Below are positions 55,900 through 64,000 of a stretch of DNA of 64,000 nucleotides, in pieces. Position 1 is the first letter of the stretch. The number at the start of each line of letters is the position of its first letter. The stretch covers positions 4,960,001 through 5,024,000 of the forward strand of contig NZ_CP042431.1 in NCBI RefSeq assembly GCF_007970185.1, given 5' to 3'. Position numbers and translations under genes: made by a program. This DNA is from Pseudobacter ginsenosidimutans (GTDB lineage: Bacteria > Bacteroidota > Bacteroidia > Chitinophagales > Chitinophagaceae). The notes below the pieces were generated by a model. The model searched no databases. It saw nothing but the letters and a program-made list of their open reading frames with translations, and was not told where the DNA came from.

Positions 55900-57225
55900 T
55901 CAGCCTGCATTGCTTTCCAGCATTTCCAGGATCCCTTCATTCCTGATGATCATCATTCCCTGCCTGTCTTCCGTGATGCCTTCCTGCAGCCTGTAGGTAT
56001 ACCTGGGCTTAGCGCCTTCCATGATAGTGGGCATGAACAATGACTGGATATTGTTATGTTTTTTCAGGGATTCACCCACTTCAATGATATGCGTGGAAAC
56101 GATGAACAAACAATTTCTGTATTCAGCAAATCCTTCTGTTACTGCCAGGGTTCCATCGAATGCATCTTTTACATTGGTGCCTTTGAACAATTCATCAAAC
56201 ATCAGCAGTAATCTTTTGCCACTGGCGGCAGCATCGGCTGCCTGCTTTACCCGCACTACTTCTGCATAGAAATGGCTATAGCCCAATCCGATATTATCGG
56301 CCACATTGATACTCGAGTACATCCCTTCACGAACTGAGAATTCAAACATATCCGCAGCCACCGGAAATCCCATGTGTGCGAGGTATAAACCGATACCCAC
56401 AGATTTCATCCAGGTGGATTTTCCAGCCATATTGGCGCCGGTAAGGAATAATACATTGCAGGTCCCGTTCAGCAATAGATTGTTGCCTGTTGCTTTATCT
56501 ATACAAGGATGGTGAAGGGCTGCCACTGAAAAGCAATTGTTCTCCGGAGGGAATGCTCTGGCATAGTTGAATTTCCTGCTGCGCGCTACATCACTAATGG
56601 CAATATACACATCCACTTCGTAGATGAACTGTAGCAGATCCTCCAGTTCGGAATTGTATTTTTCCTTCAGCAAATGATCATAATACGCAATGGTTTGTAC
56701 CGGCAATGATTGATAGATATCTGTATTACGTACTTTTTCCAGTTTCTTGTCGGCAAGAAGTGTTTGGATCGATCTTATACGATTGGCATAAGGACCGGTT
56801 TGCAACTGTTGACTGTTTACAAATTCGAAACATTTGTTCAGGATTACGATGGTTGCCTGCAGCCCCTGCACATTCTTTTTGAAACGCTCATCCCTCGTGA
56901 GCTTCGACAAACATTTTTTTACAAATGTTCCTGCCAGCACCATCGCCGCATTTTTGCTCACACGGATATCGAGGTACTCACGCATGAGACTTACTTGTTG
57001 CACATCGAAAGGAAATTGTATCGCTGCCTGCTGGAAACTCCGGAAGATCCTGCTTCTTTCATTGATGACCTCTGCGCTGGTGAGCGGCGTACGGAACATC
57101 GCATCCAGCAATTGTTCTGCTCCTCTTGTTTTGACCCTGTTGAATAAATGATAAACTGATCCCTGCCGGAATTTACCGAGCAGGTTCAACTCTTCGAGCG
57201 TTTGTTTGTCTATGCTAAAACTCAT
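55900..57225 (-). CDS. Stand-alone MutS-family ATPase, second of a tandem pair
   Basis: 441 residues. It has only the helical core/lever (about residues 1-235) and the ATPase domain V. The mismatch-binding domain I and connector domain II of true MutS are absent, and there is no C-terminal Smr nuclease as in MutS2. The ATPase is intact: GANMAGKST (Walker A, residue ~263), LLMFDELFKGTN (Walker B region, ~341), STHIIEVGE (~377). The C-terminus ends in GITEDRQGMMIIRNEGI, shared with the upstream paralogue. It lies 28 bases after that gene and closes an operon with two ABC permease fusions and an ABC ATPase. Biochemical role unknown. Confidence 0.88.
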   Translation of the reverse strand: MSFSIDKQTLEELNLLGKFRQGSVYHLFNRVKTRGAEQLLDAMFRTPLTSAEVINERSRIFRSFQQAAIQFPFDVQQVSLMREYLDIRVSKNAAMVLAGTFVKKCLSKLTRDERFKKNVQGLQATIVILNKCFEFVNSQQLQTGPYANRIRSIQTLLADKKLEKVRNTDIYQSLPVQTIAYYDHLLKEKYNSELEDLLQFIYEVDVYIAISDVARSRKFNYARAFPPENNCFSVAALHHPCIDKATGNNLLLNGTCNVLFLTGANMAGKSTWMKSVGIGLYLAHMGFPVAADMFEFSVREGMYSSINVADNIGLGYSHFYAEVVRVKQAADAAASGKRLLLMFDELFKGTNVKDAFDGTLAVTEGFAEYRNCLFIVSTHIIEVGESLKKHNNIQSLFMPTIMEGAKPRYTYRLQEGITEDRQGMMIIRNEGILEMLESNAG

Positions 57226-57253
57226 GGTTAATATTTTTAATCAGGCTGTGCCG

Positions 57254-58540
57254 TTAAGCTTTCTTCCCGTTTTTCAAGGTTTCCAAAATGCCTTCGTTCC
57301 TGATGATGATCATACCATGACGATCATCGGTAATTCCCTTTTCAAGCGTATAAGTGTATTCTGGTGCATGCCCCTTCATTTTAGTTGGTAAATACAGGAA
57401 GCCGATATTGGGTTGTTGTTTCAATTCTTCACCTGCTTCCACAATATGGGATGAAATAATGAAGAGGCTGTTCGATTTGCCGGCGAATCCGCGCGTGACA
57501 GCCACCGTGGCTTCATGCGCATCCTTCACATTGGTGCCGCGGAACAATTCATCAAAAAGAATGAATAATGATTTGCCACTGCTCAGTTCGCTGGCCATCT
57601 TTTTAACCCGCAATACTTCTGCATAGAAATGACTGGCGCCGATGCCCAGGTTGTCCGGGAGATTCACTGTGGTGTACAAACCATCCAGCACGGAGAACTC
57701 CATCGAATTGGCTGCCACAGGGAATCCCATATGCGCTATATACAATGCTGTGCTCAGCGATCGCAGCATCGTTGATTTACCGGCCATATTGGCCCCGGTC
57801 AGAAATATCACATTCTGCTGTTCATCCATTCTTACATTGTTGCGCACTGCATTAGTGAGCGTTGGATGGTACACGCCTTCCAGGGCTAGTACGGGTTTTC
57901 CTTTGCTGAGCGCGCGGGGAAATACAAAGCCACGATCAGTGGCTGTTCTGGCCACAGCAATATATACATCCAGCTGATAAAGCTGTTTCAGCAGGTTTTC
58001 CAAATGAATTCTTTGTGCCGCTCTGAACAGGGAATCGAATGCCGTAACTGCCGCATATGAGATCTTGTTTTTTCCGGCTCCCTGTTTCAGCGCGGGCTCA
58101 AATGCAGGATTGGATAAGATCTTTTCTATGATCGTTCGCTCATTGATATATTCACTGAGTTGCTGCACATCATTTCGCTCAACAAAAATCTGGGTGAGAT
58201 GTAAGAGATCGATAATTGCAGACACTCCATTCTGCACTTCCTTTTCGCTTAACTGAGTCTGATGCTGTTCGTTGATATTTTGGAACAAATACTTTTCAGT
58301 AACATCAAAAATTGAAGCATCAAAAGGGAAAACCAGATTTGCCTTCATGAACTGGGCAATGGTATTGCTTCGCTGGTTGATGGCAGTTTTGTCACTCAGG
58401 GGAGATTTGAACAACACTTCCAGTAATGCTTCTCCACCACGGGTATGCGCATTGTTGTAAATGTCATAGATCCCGTGACCGTCTCTTTTCCCAAATATGC
58501 CGAGATCATCGATGGTTTGTTCATCAGTTTGTAAATACAT
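57254..58540 (-). CDS. Stand-alone MutS-family ATPase, first of a tandem pair
   Basis: 428 residues, same two-domain layout as the neighbour at 55900: a helical core (residues 1-225) and MutS domain V. Motifs are GANMAGKST, FILFDELFRGTN, SSHIVEAGEE and the shared tail GITDDRHGMIIIRNEGI. The pair share perhaps a third to two-fifths of their residues, so they are old paralogues that may form a heterodimer, as MutS proteins act as dimers with composite ATP sites. Starts six bases after the ABC permease fusion gene at 58547, so it is part of the same message. Confidence 0.88.
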   Translation of the reverse strand: MYLQTDEQTIDDLGIFGKRDGHGIYDIYNNAHTRGGEALLEVLFKSPLSDKTAINQRSNTIAQFMKANLVFPFDASIFDVTEKYLFQNINEQHQTQLSEKEVQNGVSAIIDLLHLTQIFVERNDVQQLSEYINERTIIEKILSNPAFEPALKQGAGKNKISYAAVTAFDSLFRAAQRIHLENLLKQLYQLDVYIAVARTATDRGFVFPRALSKGKPVLALEGVYHPTLTNAVRNNVRMDEQQNVIFLTGANMAGKSTMLRSLSTALYIAHMGFPVAANSMEFSVLDGLYTTVNLPDNLGIGASHFYAEVLRVKKMASELSSGKSLFILFDELFRGTNVKDAHEATVAVTRGFAGKSNSLFIISSHIVEAGEELKQQPNIGFLYLPTKMKGHAPEYTYTLEKGITDDRHGMIIIRNEGILETLKNGKKA

Positions 58541-58546
58541 CGTTGC

Positions 58547-60865
58547 TTATTTTCTTTTTCTACGGATCAATACGATGGCGCCAATGCTCAGCAGTATCGC
58601 AGGCACCACCCAAAACATTATTTTCTTCTGATAGTATGCTGCGTGTTCCCCGATCTTTAGCAATACATCTTCTGGTTCTTTCCTGGTGGCTACAAGCGGG
58701 AACAGATTATACGCCATCCAACTGTAGATGGATGTGAGGAAAGTATTATTGTTTGATAAGCGCCTGTTACTGGCGAGGTCGGCATCACCACTGATCACCA
58801 GCCGCTGCTCTTTTCCGTTGATGGTCCTTGTCAGATTTTTGATCACAGAAAAACTTTGTTGTTTGAGATCGCCTGCTGCTGCATTGAAGGGAGGCAGGAT
58901 GGAATCGATCACAATAGTTCCCCTGCTGAGCCAGGTGGCATTGGGTATGGTATTGGCGAGTGAATCAATTTTCCAACCGGCAGGTTGCAGACTGGTGACA
59001 GCTGTAACGCCGGGCAACAGTGCATAATCATTCAGGTTTGCTATCGGTTCTGCCAATGTTCTGCTACTGGCGGATACCAGCGCATACACTTTATCAGGTG
59101 TTTCGTCCTGGGTTGGATAAACAAGTTGTCCGGGCTCCAGTTGCATACCTAATGGGGCCAGTAAGGGATTCAATACATGTTGTTTGCCGGGCTCTCCGTA
59201 GAACATGCAATTACCACCTTTGGCAATGTACTGGTTGATCTTTTCAGTAACAACGGGACTAAGATCCATTTTAGGATCAGCGATCACCAGCGTTGTAAGT
59301 TTATCGGGAATGGATTGGGTATGCAGGTTGATGGTATCCACATCAAACCCGATATTGATCATCGACTTCCTGTGTTGTTTACTGGTTGTATGTGTAGCAT
59401 ATTCCCGGTCTCCCCATTTGTAAATATTCCTTTCAAGAGAACCTGTGCTGAAGGCAACCGAAGGCATGGGTGTTCCCTGCACTCTTTTGATAGCGGCCAT
59501 CACATTGGTTTCATCGGGCCAGAAATTATTATCATCGAATGTGCGGAGTACTGCAGTATGCCCTTTGAATTTTAATTGCATCACCAGTTTTTCCTGTTCC
59601 GCTGCGAGGTTGATATCAGCCTGTACTTTGTTTACCGGGAGGTACATATCTTCAGACCGCCCGCTCATCTTGCACATTTCTTTTACGATTGCTTCCACAG
59701 ATTTATGTGGGAACAATTTGGTTAAACTCTGCGGATCTGCGATTGTATCATACGCATAGTAATAAACATATTTAAAACTGATATCCGGTTTGAACCGCAG
59801 GTACATGTCCCAGAACTGTCCCAGGTAATTGCTGTTGCGGCTTTCGGGCATTCCATAGATGAGGTCATTTTGTTTACCGAGCAGATTGGAATACATCGTT
59901 ACCTCCAGGGTGCTATCGCCCAACTCCTTCAACAACTGTTGTGTTTTCGGGTGCAGTGTATTTCTTTGGGTACTCGTGGCGTCGAGGTATCCTGTGAGCG
60001 CCGGACGCGAACTGATATAACCAAGCAGCAGTACAACCACCAGTGTCAACAGGGTTCTGCCAGCTTTGATATGCCAGGGTCTGTACTGTAGTTTACCGGA
60101 AAGTCTGAAGCAGGTGAATACAACAAACATCCCTGGCACCAGTATGAAATAAAACAGGTCCCTTGTGGTGATGAGACCGTTCAGCATTTTGTCTGCCCGG
60201 CCCTGCATGGAAAGGAACCAGGTAAGGTCTCTCACAAAATCATACCGCTGCCATAAGCTACCAATATAGATCAGCGCCCAGATAGTTAAGAAAGTGGCAA
60301 TGGCAGATACGATCTGCGATTGACTGAGACTACTCAAAAACAGGCCGATAGCGGAATACGCACATACCAGTAAATAGAAACCCAGAAGGGCCGATAGTAA
60401 TGCGCTGCTGTCAACCTGTTTGATATTCATCATTCCTGTTACCAGAAAAATAGCCACGATCAATACCAGGATCATATTGTACAACATGATACCAAGATAT
60501 TTTCCCAGCACCACCTTCCTGATACTGATGGGTGAAGAATAAAGCAGTGCACTGGTGCCCATCAGGTAATCCCTGCTGATCAGTCCCATCGTTAACAATG
60601 GGATGATCAGAAAAAGATTGCCGCTGATACTGGTAAAAAATCCACCCAGCAGGAACACATCAGCTGTGAGCCCGTAGAAGGTGTGCAGGGCTTTGAATGA
60701 AGGAGCATTCTTAAGTTGCACTTCCTGGATATTCGCGAGATAGTGAATGGTGTTTGTATAGGAATGAGCACAGCTGATAAAAAAGATCAGCAACACAAAC
60801 CAGGCAATCGGGGAGTAAAACAAGTTCCGGAACTCATTCTTTGCTATACTGAAAATGATTTTCAT
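58547..60865 (-). CDS. GldF-GldG-like fused ABC permease, paralogue 2
   Basis: 772 residues. The N-terminal about 260 residues are an ABC-2 type permease with six membrane helices (YSPIAWFVLLIFFISCAHSY, then a SRDYLMGTSALLYSSPISIRKVVLGKYLG signature). The central about 450 residues are an exported GldG-like auxiliary domain (ABC_transp_aux: FVLSRP-type start SSRPALTGYLDA, VMYSNLLGK, ISGDADLASNRR). A last helix and RRKRK end anchor the C-terminus. In flavobacteria GldF and GldG are separate; here they are one chain. Partner of the 60876 paralogue, ten bases upstream. The substrate is unknown; gliding is one possibility. Confidence 0.86.
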   Translation of the reverse strand: MKIIFSIAKNEFRNLFYSPIAWFVLLIFFISCAHSYTNTIHYLANIQEVQLKNAPSFKALHTFYGLTADVFLLGGFFTSISGNLFLIIPLLTMGLISRDYLMGTSALLYSSPISIRKVVLGKYLGIMLYNMILVLIVAIFLVTGMMNIKQVDSSALLSALLGFYLLVCAYSAIGLFLSSLSQSQIVSAIATFLTIWALIYIGSLWQRYDFVRDLTWFLSMQGRADKMLNGLITTRDLFYFILVPGMFVVFTCFRLSGKLQYRPWHIKAGRTLLTLVVVLLLGYISSRPALTGYLDATSTQRNTLHPKTQQLLKELGDSTLEVTMYSNLLGKQNDLIYGMPESRNSNYLGQFWDMYLRFKPDISFKYVYYYAYDTIADPQSLTKLFPHKSVEAIVKEMCKMSGRSEDMYLPVNKVQADINLAAEQEKLVMQLKFKGHTAVLRTFDDNNFWPDETNVMAAIKRVQGTPMPSVAFSTGSLERNIYKWGDREYATHTTSKQHRKSMINIGFDVDTINLHTQSIPDKLTTLVIADPKMDLSPVVTEKINQYIAKGGNCMFYGEPGKQHVLNPLLAPLGMQLEPGQLVYPTQDETPDKVYALVSASSRTLAEPIANLNDYALLPGVTAVTSLQPAGWKIDSLANTIPNATWLSRGTIVIDSILPPFNAAAGDLKQQSFSVIKNLTRTINGKEQRLVISGDADLASNRRLSNNNTFLTSIYSWMAYNLFPLVATRKEPEDVLLKIGEHAAYYQKKIMFWVVPAILLSIGAIVLIRRKRK

Positions 60866-60875
60866 AGCGGATCGT

Positions 60876-63227
60876 TTATTTTCTTTTTCTTCTGATTAGA
60901 ATTATCACGCCAGTTATCAGCACTAAGGATGGCAGTATCCAGGTGAAAACTATTTTCTGAATATAGGCCCGTTTCATTTTTACCAGCAGCCAGTCGTCTT
61001 TTGCCTGTGGCCTGGGTGTATAGATGGGGAACTTATTGTAGGCGGTCCAGCTATACATAGAATAGAGCATGGGAGTAGTTCCGTCCCAGATCCCCTGATT
61101 GCTGAGTATGTCTGCATCACCGGTCACGATAATTCTTTGTTCCTTCTGACCGATGGTCCTGGAGAGTTTGGTGATCACCGGTGCAGAAACTTCTTTCTGA
61201 TCACCTGCTGCCGGATCAAAAACAGGCGCCGTAGAATCAACAATCAGTTTTCCTACTTTCAACCAGCTCTTGTTGGGAGCAGATAAAACAAGTGGAGTTG
61301 AATGAAATCCGTTTTCACCTTTTCCAGACAGGCTGGTGGCTCCTCTTATTTTCAGAAAGAGTGAGTCTTCGTAGATGCCATTTGCCCAGAGGTATTTTGA
61401 TTGCCGGAAAGTTCTTTCTTCAGAGAGGTTGAAAGCAGTGGTATCGATAAAACCTGTAATTTTTTCCGGTGTTTCATGTTTGCTGAGTTGGACCAGCTGT
61501 CCATCCTGCAATTGGATACCTGTCTGTTTCAGCAATGGATTTAATACCTGTTGTTTGCCTGGTTCTCCCAGGATGATCATATTACCTCCTTGCAGCAGGT
61601 ATTGCGTGAGCTTGCCCATAACAGTATCGGTATAAGCAACACGCGGATCGGCCAGTACCAGCAAAGAAGTATTGACTGGTATATTGTGTGTGGAAAGATT
61701 CAGTGTATCCAGATCAAACCCGGAATTGATGAGAGATTCCAGTCCCCATTTGTCGGCAGTATGTAACGACAATTCTCTTTCTCCTCTTTTGTAAATGCTT
61801 CTTTCCAGTTGTCCGGATACATAGTAAACCTGTGGAATTGGTTTATTCAGCAGACGGCTCAGTACTGCATTGATATTGCGTTCCCTGGGCCATGGTTTCG
61901 CCGGGGCATGCGTTCTCAGAATTGTTTTTCTTCCCTGGTATTCCAGGGTCATTAATAATTCCAGGTTTTCGGATTCCAGTTCTTTCAGGTTGGGCATTTC
62001 GGCAGCCGGTTTGAACAATGCCGGATCCACCTGTAGCATTTTTGCTTTCAGGCCGGCAATCTGTTGCAAGGTTTTTCCTGGATATTTTCTGAAGAGGCTG
62101 CTGTCAGTTTTTTGGATGCCATAATAGTACACATACTTAAAGTGGATATCTGATTTGAAACGCTGATAAGGCCACCATACTTTTTCCAGGTAAGTATTGC
62201 GTGCGGCGGGTAGCCCAAAGTTTGCTTTCTGATCCAGGAGATTGGTGTACAGGGTTATTTCCAATGGACCCTCATTCAGCTCCCTGATGAGTTCCTGTGA
62301 TCTTGGATGTATGCTGTGAAGTTGTTGTGCAGTGGTATCGAAGTATACATTGTTAGCCGGACGGGAAAAAACATAACCTGTCAGTACGCAGATCAGTATC
62401 AGCGAAAGATAACGGCTCACCCTTACATACCAGACACGGCTTTCAGTGCCATGCTTCAGTCTTAATAAAGTAAATCCAATGAATGCGCAGATGATGAGAA
62501 GATAATAAATGATATCGCTGGTGGTTATGAGCCCAGACAGCATATTGGTGATCTTATTGGAGATCGCTAAGAACCAGGTGATATCCCTGAAGAATTCATA
62601 CTCCTGCCAGAGTGTTTGAATGCGTGACAACAGAAACAACACCGTAAAACTGGCCAGTGCCGATACGATCTGGTAACTGGTAAGGCTAGACATGAATACT
62701 GCAATCGCAGTCAGGGCGCTGAGCAACAGGAACAAGCCCAGCAAACCAGAAAGGAGAGGAGGAAGATCAAGCGATCTGATATCAAAGAATCCAAGTACTA
62801 TGAATATGCCGATGATGGCAACAAGGATGAAATTATACACCGTCAATCCCAGAAACTTACCCAGTACGATCTGCCTGAGTTTAACCGGCGATGAATACAA
62901 GAGCCTGATAGTACCATTGTTGAATTCCTTGTTGATGACGCTCATCGCCAGCAGTGGAACAAACAGGTACAAGTATTTTAAGATCACAAAAAACAGCCCA
63001 CTTCCCAGGGTATTGTATATGTTTTTGGTGTAGGACTCATCAATATTATAAAAGAGAGGTTTGGGGTTATTTCTTTCCAGCATCTCGGTAGCTGCCGCAT
63101 ATCCCAACATTGGGTTTGTATAGAAGTAAGCTGTCATCACCAGCATGGTGAGCGCCAGGAACCAGCCAATCGGTGAATAGAACAGATGGCGGAGCTCGTT
63201 TTTGGCGATTTTGAAAATAATACGCAT
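60876..63227 (-). CDS. GldF-GldG-like fused ABC permease, paralogue 1
   Basis: 783 residues with the same layout as the 58547 gene: ABC-2 permease (YSPIGWFLALTMLVMTAYFY, NGTIRLLYSSPVKLRQIVLGKFLG), GldG-like extracytoplasmic domain (YVFSRPANNVYFDTTAQQ, VTGDADILSNQG) and a final helix (WILPSLVLITGVIILIRRKRK). The two paralogues probably form the membrane heterodimer that one ATPase drives, since a single ATP-binding gene (63254) precedes both. The gap to that gene is 26 bases and to the next permease ten bases, so all are one operon. Confidence 0.86.
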   Translation of the reverse strand: MRIIFKIAKNELRHLFYSPIGWFLALTMLVMTAYFYTNPMLGYAAATEMLERNNPKPLFYNIDESYTKNIYNTLGSGLFFVILKYLYLFVPLLAMSVINKEFNNGTIRLLYSSPVKLRQIVLGKFLGLTVYNFILVAIIGIFIVLGFFDIRSLDLPPLLSGLLGLFLLLSALTAIAVFMSSLTSYQIVSALASFTVLFLLSRIQTLWQEYEFFRDITWFLAISNKITNMLSGLITTSDIIYYLLIICAFIGFTLLRLKHGTESRVWYVRVSRYLSLILICVLTGYVFSRPANNVYFDTTAQQLHSIHPRSQELIRELNEGPLEITLYTNLLDQKANFGLPAARNTYLEKVWWPYQRFKSDIHFKYVYYYGIQKTDSSLFRKYPGKTLQQIAGLKAKMLQVDPALFKPAAEMPNLKELESENLELLMTLEYQGRKTILRTHAPAKPWPRERNINAVLSRLLNKPIPQVYYVSGQLERSIYKRGERELSLHTADKWGLESLINSGFDLDTLNLSTHNIPVNTSLLVLADPRVAYTDTVMGKLTQYLLQGGNMIILGEPGKQQVLNPLLKQTGIQLQDGQLVQLSKHETPEKITGFIDTTAFNLSEERTFRQSKYLWANGIYEDSLFLKIRGATSLSGKGENGFHSTPLVLSAPNKSWLKVGKLIVDSTAPVFDPAAGDQKEVSAPVITKLSRTIGQKEQRIIVTGDADILSNQGIWDGTTPMLYSMYSWTAYNKFPIYTPRPQAKDDWLLVKMKRAYIQKIVFTWILPSLVLITGVIILIRRKRK

Positions 63228-63253
63228 CAGAGTGATTTTACTTGCCTGGTAGA

Positions 63254-64000
63254 TTAGTGATTGGATTGGGATGATAATTGTTTGAACACATCATCCAGCA
63301 ATCCTTTGTCCTGACCGATTTCACGGAGTTTCCATCCTTGTTGTGCACTGGCATTGATCAGTCTGGCGTTCATCTCTTCATCACCATTGTAATGAATACG
63401 GACCTGTGAAGGATTGAGGAATTCTACGGATTCAACGCCTGGTATTTGCAGTAATGCTTCTTTGGATGGCGGGTTGTCGAATTTGACGAGTATGGCGTTT
63501 GCCTTCGTGTAATTGTTGAAAGCATCCATTGTATCGGAGAACACGATCCTCCCGCTCTCGATCATAATGATATCCCTGCAAAGCAGGTTGATCTCGGAAA
63601 GGATATGTGAGGATAATAAAACAGTGTGTTCGCGGGCAATTTCTTTGATCAGTTTTCTGGCTTCGATGATCTGGTTGGGATCAAGGCCGTTGGTGGGTTC
63701 ATCCATCACCACCAGTTTAGGCTTATGGATGATGGCCTGTGCAATGCCCACCCGTTGGCGATAACCACCTGAAAGATTTTTGATGAGGCGAGAGCTGATA
63801 TGAGACAGACCGCATTTGTCTTTCACTTCTTCAACAGCTTTCTTAATTTGCTTCTTATCAATTAGCCTGAGCTCTGCGCTGAAGACGAGGAATTCATCAA
63901 TGGTGAGATCGGTGTACAGTGGCGCCTGCTGCGGGAGAAAACCAATTTCCCTTTTTACAGCTTCGGGGTTCTTTCGTTTATTGATCCCATTTATGAATAC
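63254..64000 (-). CDS. ABC transporter ATP-binding protein, GldA-like (partial)
   Basis: 249 codons are visible; the gene runs off the right edge, so its N-terminus with Walker A is missing. Present are the Q-loop (REIGFLPQQAPLYTDLT), the ABC signature NLSGGYRQRVGIAQAIIH, Walker B KLVVMDEPTNGLDP, the D-loop, and the switch histidine in LLSSHILSE. A C-terminal about 80-residue regulatory tail (AILVKFDNPPSKEALLQIPG) is like that of GldA and related export ATPases. It would power the two fused permeases downstream. Confidence 0.92.
   Translation of the reverse strand, partial: VFINGINKRKNPEAVKREIGFLPQQAPLYTDLTIDEFLVFSAELRLIDKKQIKKAVEEVKDKCGLSHISSRLIKNLSGGYRQRVGIAQAIIHKPKLVVMDEPTNGLDPNQIIEARKLIKEIAREHTVLLSSHILSEINLLCRDIIMIESGRIVFSDTMDAFNNYTKANAILVKFDNPPSKEALLQIPGVESVEFLNPSQVRIHYNGDEEMNARLINASAQQGWKLREIGQDKGLLDDVFKQLSSQSNH

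Follow-up and report, generated by a model that had tools for sequence, protein, structure and literature searches.

Why should two members of the MutS family, whose ATPases are regarded as DNA clamps (or, for MutS2, as a ribosome clamp), be encoded directly beside a membrane transporter? The question is raised by a 64,000-nucleotide stretch of Pseudobacter ginsenosidimutans DNA (GCF_007970185.1, contig NZ_CP042431.1, positions 4,960,001 to 5,024,000), referred to below as the window. Five genes at its right-hand end encode an ATP-binding cassette (ABC) ATPase, two ABC-2 permeases fused to a GldG-like domain, and two paralogous MutS-core proteins, A and B. A first-pass annotation had taken them for a self-standing operon. 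They are instead the distal half of a longer SusC/SusD uptake operon, controlled by FecR and an extracytoplasmic function (ECF) sigma factor, that crosses the window edge. The same genome holds 56 A–B pairs, nearly all preceded by a permease of this kind, and the pair may work together with the transporter.

The MutS-core pair closes a SusC/SusD operon

All five open reading frames (ORFs) lie on the minus strand. From left to right they encode MutS-core protein B (441 amino acids (aa), 55900..57225), MutS-core protein A (428 aa, 57254..58540), the second fused permease (772 aa, 58547..60865), the first fused permease (783 aa, 60876..63227) and a GldA-like ABC ATPase (63254..64000). The last is truncated by the window end; the whole gene encodes 323 aa at genome positions 5023254-5024225, or up to 64225 in window numbering. 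The intergenic gaps of 28, 6, 10 and 26 bases agree with those annotated earlier, as do the five genes themselves and their paralogy, with 42% identity between the two permeases and 43% between the two MutS proteins.

Upstream of the ABC gene, on the same strand, lie a 337-aa lipoprotein-like ORF and the genes for SusD (518 aa), SusC (1246 aa), FecR (409 aa) and an ECF sigma factor (200 aa), extending beyond the window to genome position 5032608. The full gene order is thus ECF sigma, FecR, SusC, SusD, lipoprotein, GldA-like ABC ATPase, GldF–GldG-like fused permease or permeases, MutS-core A and MutS-core B. The window SusC exceeds the TIGR04056 cut-off (543.5 versus 368.25 bits) and carries STN, carboxypeptidase-regulatory and plug domains. 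The adjacent SusD_RagB domain scores 93.3 bits against a cut-off of 23.1, and the FecR and sigma-70 domains also pass theirs, which places the locus among the SusC/SusD uptake operons. It shares its SusC, SusD_RagB, FecR and sigma domains with the TonB-linked SusC/SusD (RagA/RagB) operons under ECF sigma/FecR control. What sets it apart from plain systems of that type is a GldAFG-like ABC transporter of its own, a MutS-core pair and its repetition in 56 copies. The outer-membrane half is of a known kind; what may be new is the putative MutS-core heterodimer as a standing member. We found no description of MutS in SusC/SusD operons in the literature within reach of our search, which left out most subscription papers.

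Fifty-six copies in one genome

The genome contains 117 PF00488 matches, which by position fall into 56 same-strand A–B pairs and five singles. A permease match lies within 4.5 kb upstream of 55 of the 56 pairs. The exceptional pair, at 748 kb, heads its operon in the order A-B-sigma-FecR-SusC-SusD-DUF4843-PKD-ABC-permease, with SusC and SusD each broken into several ORFs. For 46 pairs, SusD (PF07980) is matched no more than 12 kb upstream. Of the other ten, nine have an ORF of the SusD cluster within their gene run; the last is the 748-kb operon. Pair-linked operons hold 46 of the 150 SusD matches in the genome, about a third, which makes the question of their role central to the feeding of such soil bacteria.

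Permease number varies among the copies. Two or more permease matches lie upstream of the pair in 18 of the 56 operons, some of them pieces of one split gene, and in 10 a permease match directly follows the pair. The duplicated permease of the earlier annotation is thus real in the window and optional across the operons. Other copies have broken frames: three pairs (4348400, 2577249 and 4761575) have one of their MutS genes divided between two ORFs, and several permease, SusC and SusD genes are likewise split, as decaying copies or sequencing errors.

A and B are paired MutS-core proteins

Searches with Pfam, considering matches up to E 0.1, found only domains III and V of MutS in A and B; MutS domains I, II and IV and Smr were found in neither, in line with the earlier annotation as regards domain I, the connector and Smr. 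MutS_V scores 93.5 and 88.8 bits against a gathering score of 30.2, while MutS_III is borderline, at 34.2 bits in the 441-aa protein (cut-off 34.1) and 32.4 bits in the 428-aa protein. Both proteins have the Walker A motif GANMAGKST, and Walker B reads FDELFKGTNVKDA in B and FDELFRGTNVKDA in A. The intact Walker motifs noted in the first-pass annotation proved general: the key residues of Walker A, Walker B and the H-loop are invariant in 40 of 40 aligned A rows and 39 of 39 B rows. With MutS_V above its gathering score and both Walker motifs intact, A and B belong to the MutS-superfamily ATPases.

They belong to none of the named branches compared. Whole-protein scores were judged against NCBIfam cut-offs, and across the MutS1 and MutS2 models the pair reached 66–125 bits against cut-offs of 400–642. 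For MutS1, where domains I, II and IV are also lacking, the scores were 94–125 bits (cut-offs 480 and 641.7); for MutS2, which is defined by Smr and KOW parts as well as by score, they were 66–67 bits (cut-off 400), with no Smr match. A and B share with MutS1, MutS2 and eukaryotic MSH proteins the domain III–V core, all ATPase motifs and a MutS-like predicted fold (7oto, E 1e-17). They differ in their length of ~430–440 aa, in having no recognition, connector, clamp or Smr parts that we could find, and in sitting in transport operons. KamC, the MutS-related reactivase of lysine 5,6-aminomutase, resembles them in being a MutS relative whose named target is a protein, but A and B score only 92.6 and 103.7 bits against its cut-off of 300 (NF052383), score higher to MutS1 models, and have no aminomutase gene that we noticed nearby.

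We built a tree from 25 operons of this genome and 16 named loci from other genomes, taking A as the first and B as the second position. A single branch separates A from B (support 98/99, 100% of bootstrap trees). One B, from the operon at 7.69 Mb, attaches beside the A side, and under another root B may be paraphyletic. The residue that follows the Walker B motif FDELF is R in all 40 A rows and K in all 39 B rows. A and B are naturally fused at 4610169 (872 aa) and at 6574886 (899 aa), in three of 80 named loci and in further genomes. Identity to the window's unfused A and B is 61% and 67% for the 872-aa fusion and 42–45% for the 899-aa fusion. The two fusions are only 43–44% (A part) and 42% (B part) identical to each other, so fusion, or fission, has occurred at least twice. 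Because of the single A/B split, the kept order, the ATPase motifs, the fixed R/K difference and the independent fusions, A and B most likely form an obligate heterodimer in which the two active sites are not equivalent. The hetero-dimeric pair suggested earlier is thereby supported at the level of sequence, through the fixed A–B pairing.

A predicted structure of the natural 872-aa fusion had a mean predicted local distance difference test score (pLDDT) of 82.6 and a predicted template modelling score (pTM) of 0.72. All 50 matches listed by Foldseek were MutS, MutSalpha or MutSbeta chains (best E 1e-17, template modelling score to query 0.32–0.38). The domain-III-like first parts of the model contain no helix longer than 27 residues.

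A and B vary with the inner-membrane module

We compared pairwise-identity distances for A, B, ABC ATPase, permease, SusC and SusD in the 29 operons with all six parts whole, out of 49 operons of this genome recognised by script. Distances correlated closely for A and B (0.94), A and ABC (0.89), B and ABC (0.87), and permease and ABC (0.89), with values of 0.76–0.79 between A or B and the permease. SusC and SusD correlated at 0.95, and correlations between that block and the block of A, B, ABC and permease were 0.53–0.62. Each value exceeded those of 500 of 500 permutations. Partial correlations were highest for SusC–SusD (0.93), A–B (0.70) and permease–ABC (0.66). Since A, B, ABC and permease co-vary apart from SusC–SusD, the MutS pair goes along with the inner-membrane module, and most of all with the ABC ATPase; SusC–SusD is swapped more freely. 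Mean distance is ~0.7 for SusC–SusD versus 0.44 for MutS A and B; such diversity of SusC–SusD fits many ligands, not one polymer. In the Pedobacter locus L118 the MutS pair groups with Chitinophaga-type pairs and the permease sits on a different branch, which hints at module exchange.

The association recurs in other genera

By genome kinship and matching coordinates, the window belongs to the same genus as Pseudoflavitalea sp. G-6-1-2 and P. rhizosphaerae. At E 1e-170, the MutS B profile gave 54, 21, 13, 10, 4 and 3 matches in six genomes of this genus, possibly including a few A proteins. MutS B was found in 18 of 195 genomes of a Chitinophagaceae sample, four of them from the window's genus, and in three of 395 genomes of a phylum-wide sample, one being the window's own; these searches scored the best few candidates per genome only. 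Our named loci are the best 80 of 568 confirmed matches and are drawn from Chitinophaga, Pseudoflavitalea, Flavitalea, Niastella, Puia, Pseudobacter, Pedobacter, Mucilaginibacter, Sphingobacterium and unclassified bins.

At these 80 loci A lies upstream of B or fused to it in 79, with a permease in 76, ABC in 71, SusD in 71 and SusC in 65. Short contigs or stretch ends account for the missing part in three of four permease, six of nine ABC and six of nine SusD cases. The others are L153 for the permease, L109, L115 and L153 for ABC, and L094, L095 and L107 for SusD, several with an opposite-strand ORF kept by the caller. Of the 15 loci at which SusC is missed, eight have two permeases that displace it to the limit of the 10-kb flank, or a similar cause. 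Among 23 Chitinophagaceae pairs outside the window's genus, with coordinates read by eye, a permease lies directly upstream of 21 and two stand at the sigma end of the same operon kind. The association with GldFG-like genes, which the first-pass annotation had singled out as worth tabulating, therefore recurs over many genera, and the MutS pair is not usually apart from the ABC genes.

The ABC module resembles, and differs from, the gliding transporter

The permeases combine the Pfam domains ABC2_membrane_2 and ABC_transp_aux. As in GldA–GldF–GldG, a permease goes with an ABC_transp_aux domain, and the best NCBIfam matches are GldA for the ABC ATPase and GldF for the permease domain. No window protein reaches the equivalog cut-off of GldA, GldF or GldG: the ABC ATPase scores 278.5 bits (cut-off 402.6), the permeases 81.8 and 67.3 bits to GldF (cut-off 288.5), and GldG is matched faintly (19 bits, cut-off 389.85). 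The window type also differs in joining permease and GldG-like part in one chain. True GldF and GldG, both above their cut-offs, are encoded apart, at ~995.6 kb (L160:7882-10319, ~994-996 kb). On these observations the window's ABC genes are not the gliding transporter.

Outer-membrane proteins and candidate ligands

The best structural match of the window SusC is 8ypu (1.5e-77), followed among others by RagA (1.7e-32) and BT_2264 (1.9e-20). The slot between SusD and ABC is variable; the clusters found there comprise 27 DUF4397-like proteins, 12 of the window's type, 7 each of DUF4843 and PKD_2, and others. Sister-operon lipoproteins in this slot include DUF4843 and PKD_2 types and one that faintly resembles TIGR04549 (23.0 bits, below its cut-off of 75). 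The window type (cluster C8; L066:307-1317 and relatives) is a lipoprotein family with 12 copies in the slot. The window lipoprotein has no Pfam family and no sequence match in the PDB; its predicted structure reached pLDDT 81.1 and pTM 0.79. BT_2264 presumably has peptide-binding partners, and the expected lipoprotein matches to those partners did not appear.

Within three genes downstream of the pair, 31 of the 80 named loci carry an S41 (15 loci), M16 (12) or TlpA/thioredoxin-like (7) gene. An M16 peptidase gene closes several operons of the same layout that lack MutS. These downstream genes suggest that the ligands are perhaps peptide-like.

A proposed role for the pair, and its rivals

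We propose that an ATP-driven MutS-core clamp works with the SusCD-linked ABC transporter, on a ligand that is perhaps peptide-like, and regard this as an evenly balanced proposition. SusC–SusD and the lipoprotein would carry the ligand across the outer membrane and, by way of FecR, signal to the sigma factor. The GldA-like ABC ATPase and the ABC-2 permeases with their GldG-like domain would form the inner-membrane transporter. ABC-2 permeases are mostly exporters, so transport across the inner membrane could run in either direction. In the cytosol, the A–B heterodimer would use ATP to clamp and release the transporter or its cargo and would take no part in mismatch repair. We infer that A and B form a heterodimer, that it associates physically with the ABC complex, that its client is a protein and not DNA, and that the ligand is peptide-like. 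In a stronger version, which is conceivable but doubtful, A–B would be a transport ATPase of a new kind: attached as a MutS-fold clamp to the cytosolic face of the ABC-2 transporter, it would handle the incoming ligand or pull it. A single machine would then span the envelope and draw on TonB at the outer membrane, on an ABC ATPase at the inner one and on a cytosolic MutS clamp. The clamp proposal, if correct, would show that an ATP-driven MutS clamp can be harnessed for membrane transport and would give a function to genes routinely labelled mismatch repair. It also bears on how SusC/SusD ligands pass the inner membrane.

Several observations weigh against the clamp proposal. Once the other parts are accounted for, the partial correlations of A and B with ABC are weak (0.23–0.24) and those with the permease close to zero (0.08 and -0.06). 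The fusion model and its Foldseek matches support the MutS fold for single chains only, not for a predicted A–B dimer. Operons of the same layout without MutS occur in this genome (6414654, 4684528 and 726758, whose frames look broken), at eight loci of the phylum sample (range L178-L186; L187 carries the pair) and in the Chitinophagaceae sample, so the transporter can do without the pair. As for the ligand, the window lipoprotein model matched nothing in Foldseek at E 0.001 (best zinc-protease folds, E 0.24), and a PDB sequence search found no solved structure for the PKD and DUF4843 lipoproteins; the ligand class thus rests on gene company. Within this genome a peptidase-type downstream gene accompanies only two of 49 operons, the window copy not among them; this figure and that for the 80 named loci are raw counts.

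The pair might instead regulate or chaperone expression or assembly of the operon, acting for example on ribosomes, FecR/sigma or SusC, and be no working part of the transporter. That MutS folds can act on proteins is indicated by KamC, a named enzyme reactivase, and by MutS2, which is reported to act on ribosomes (PMC10897456); in one gene order, moreover, the pair comes first and adjoins sigma. A and B nevertheless co-vary more with ABC and permease than with SusC–SusD, in a test confined to those six parts, and a permease precedes 55 of 56 pairs, which leaves this explanation rather unlikely. It is improbable that DNA or another nucleic acid is the cargo, moved by the transporter and clamped by the pair on arrival, even though the nearest characterised sequence relatives are the DNA mismatch-repair MutS proteins: domains I, II and IV were not found, SusC–SusD diversity fits many ligands, and we saw no nuclease or competence gene among recurrent neighbours, at which no family-level search was aimed. 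The DNA uptake and chromosome–membrane anchoring suggested earlier found no positive evidence.

An ordinary MutS function, in mismatch repair or in suppressing recombination among 56 similar operons, would suit the MutS_V/III fold and intact ATPase motifs. We consider it very improbable, as the mismatch-recognition, connector and clamp domains were not found and other loci of the genome encode a MutS2 above its cut-off and the best match to MutS_V, a 910-aa ORF. A trans-acting repair protein, moreover, needs no dedicated pair per operon, and the pair is kept even in genomes with one or few operons. The earlier suggestion of a defence role drew only generic P-loop/ABC profile matches. The ABC ATPase does match the mad3 profile over 80 residues (64.8 bits), but that stretch holds motifs common to ABC/AAA proteins in general. 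No defence profile matches MutS B, either permease or the lipoprotein, and MutS A matches only P-loop pieces, at up to 17.9 bits. With constant SusC/SusD/sigma company and no close copy found among the 72,556 plasmid and 50,697 phage records searched, a defence or immunity cassette would greatly surprise us.

Probable recruitment to an existing operon type

Because similar operons without MutS exist, the pair looks to have been recruited to an existing operon type. A Chitinophagaceae permease search outside the window's genus gave 34 matches, judged by eye: 23 beside a MutS pair, two with the pair at the sigma end, eight without it and one at a contig end. In a tree of 150 permeases, most of them from the MutS B search, which favours linked ones, the 22 rows labelled MutS-less all fell inside one group of 42, with none among the other 108; one such label (L198) stands at a contig end and is uncallable. 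With most rows ungrouped, the number of changes on this tree is uninformative. A first permease tree, with 14 MutS-less rows and four changes against 13.6 when shuffled (0 of 500 as low), was set aside, as one of those rows (735885) proved to be pair-linked.

Single MutS relatives in the genome

The five unpaired PF00488 matches are the 910-aa ORF, presumably MutS1; the MutS2 above its NCBIfam cut-off; a short fragment; a 594-aa relative at 6618402 (L017:7403-9184), a kind of its own below all MutS cut-offs; and a 437-aa MutS-core relative (L014:7666-8976, ~2722.7 kb) between genes for dihydroorotase and an aminopeptidase-N-like protein. The 437-aa protein is 30–32% identical to the window's A and B, and its single gene may be an ancestor-like version of the pair. 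Five other Chitinophagaceae genomes have one match each to it (E 1e-73 to 1e-90), perhaps the same gene.

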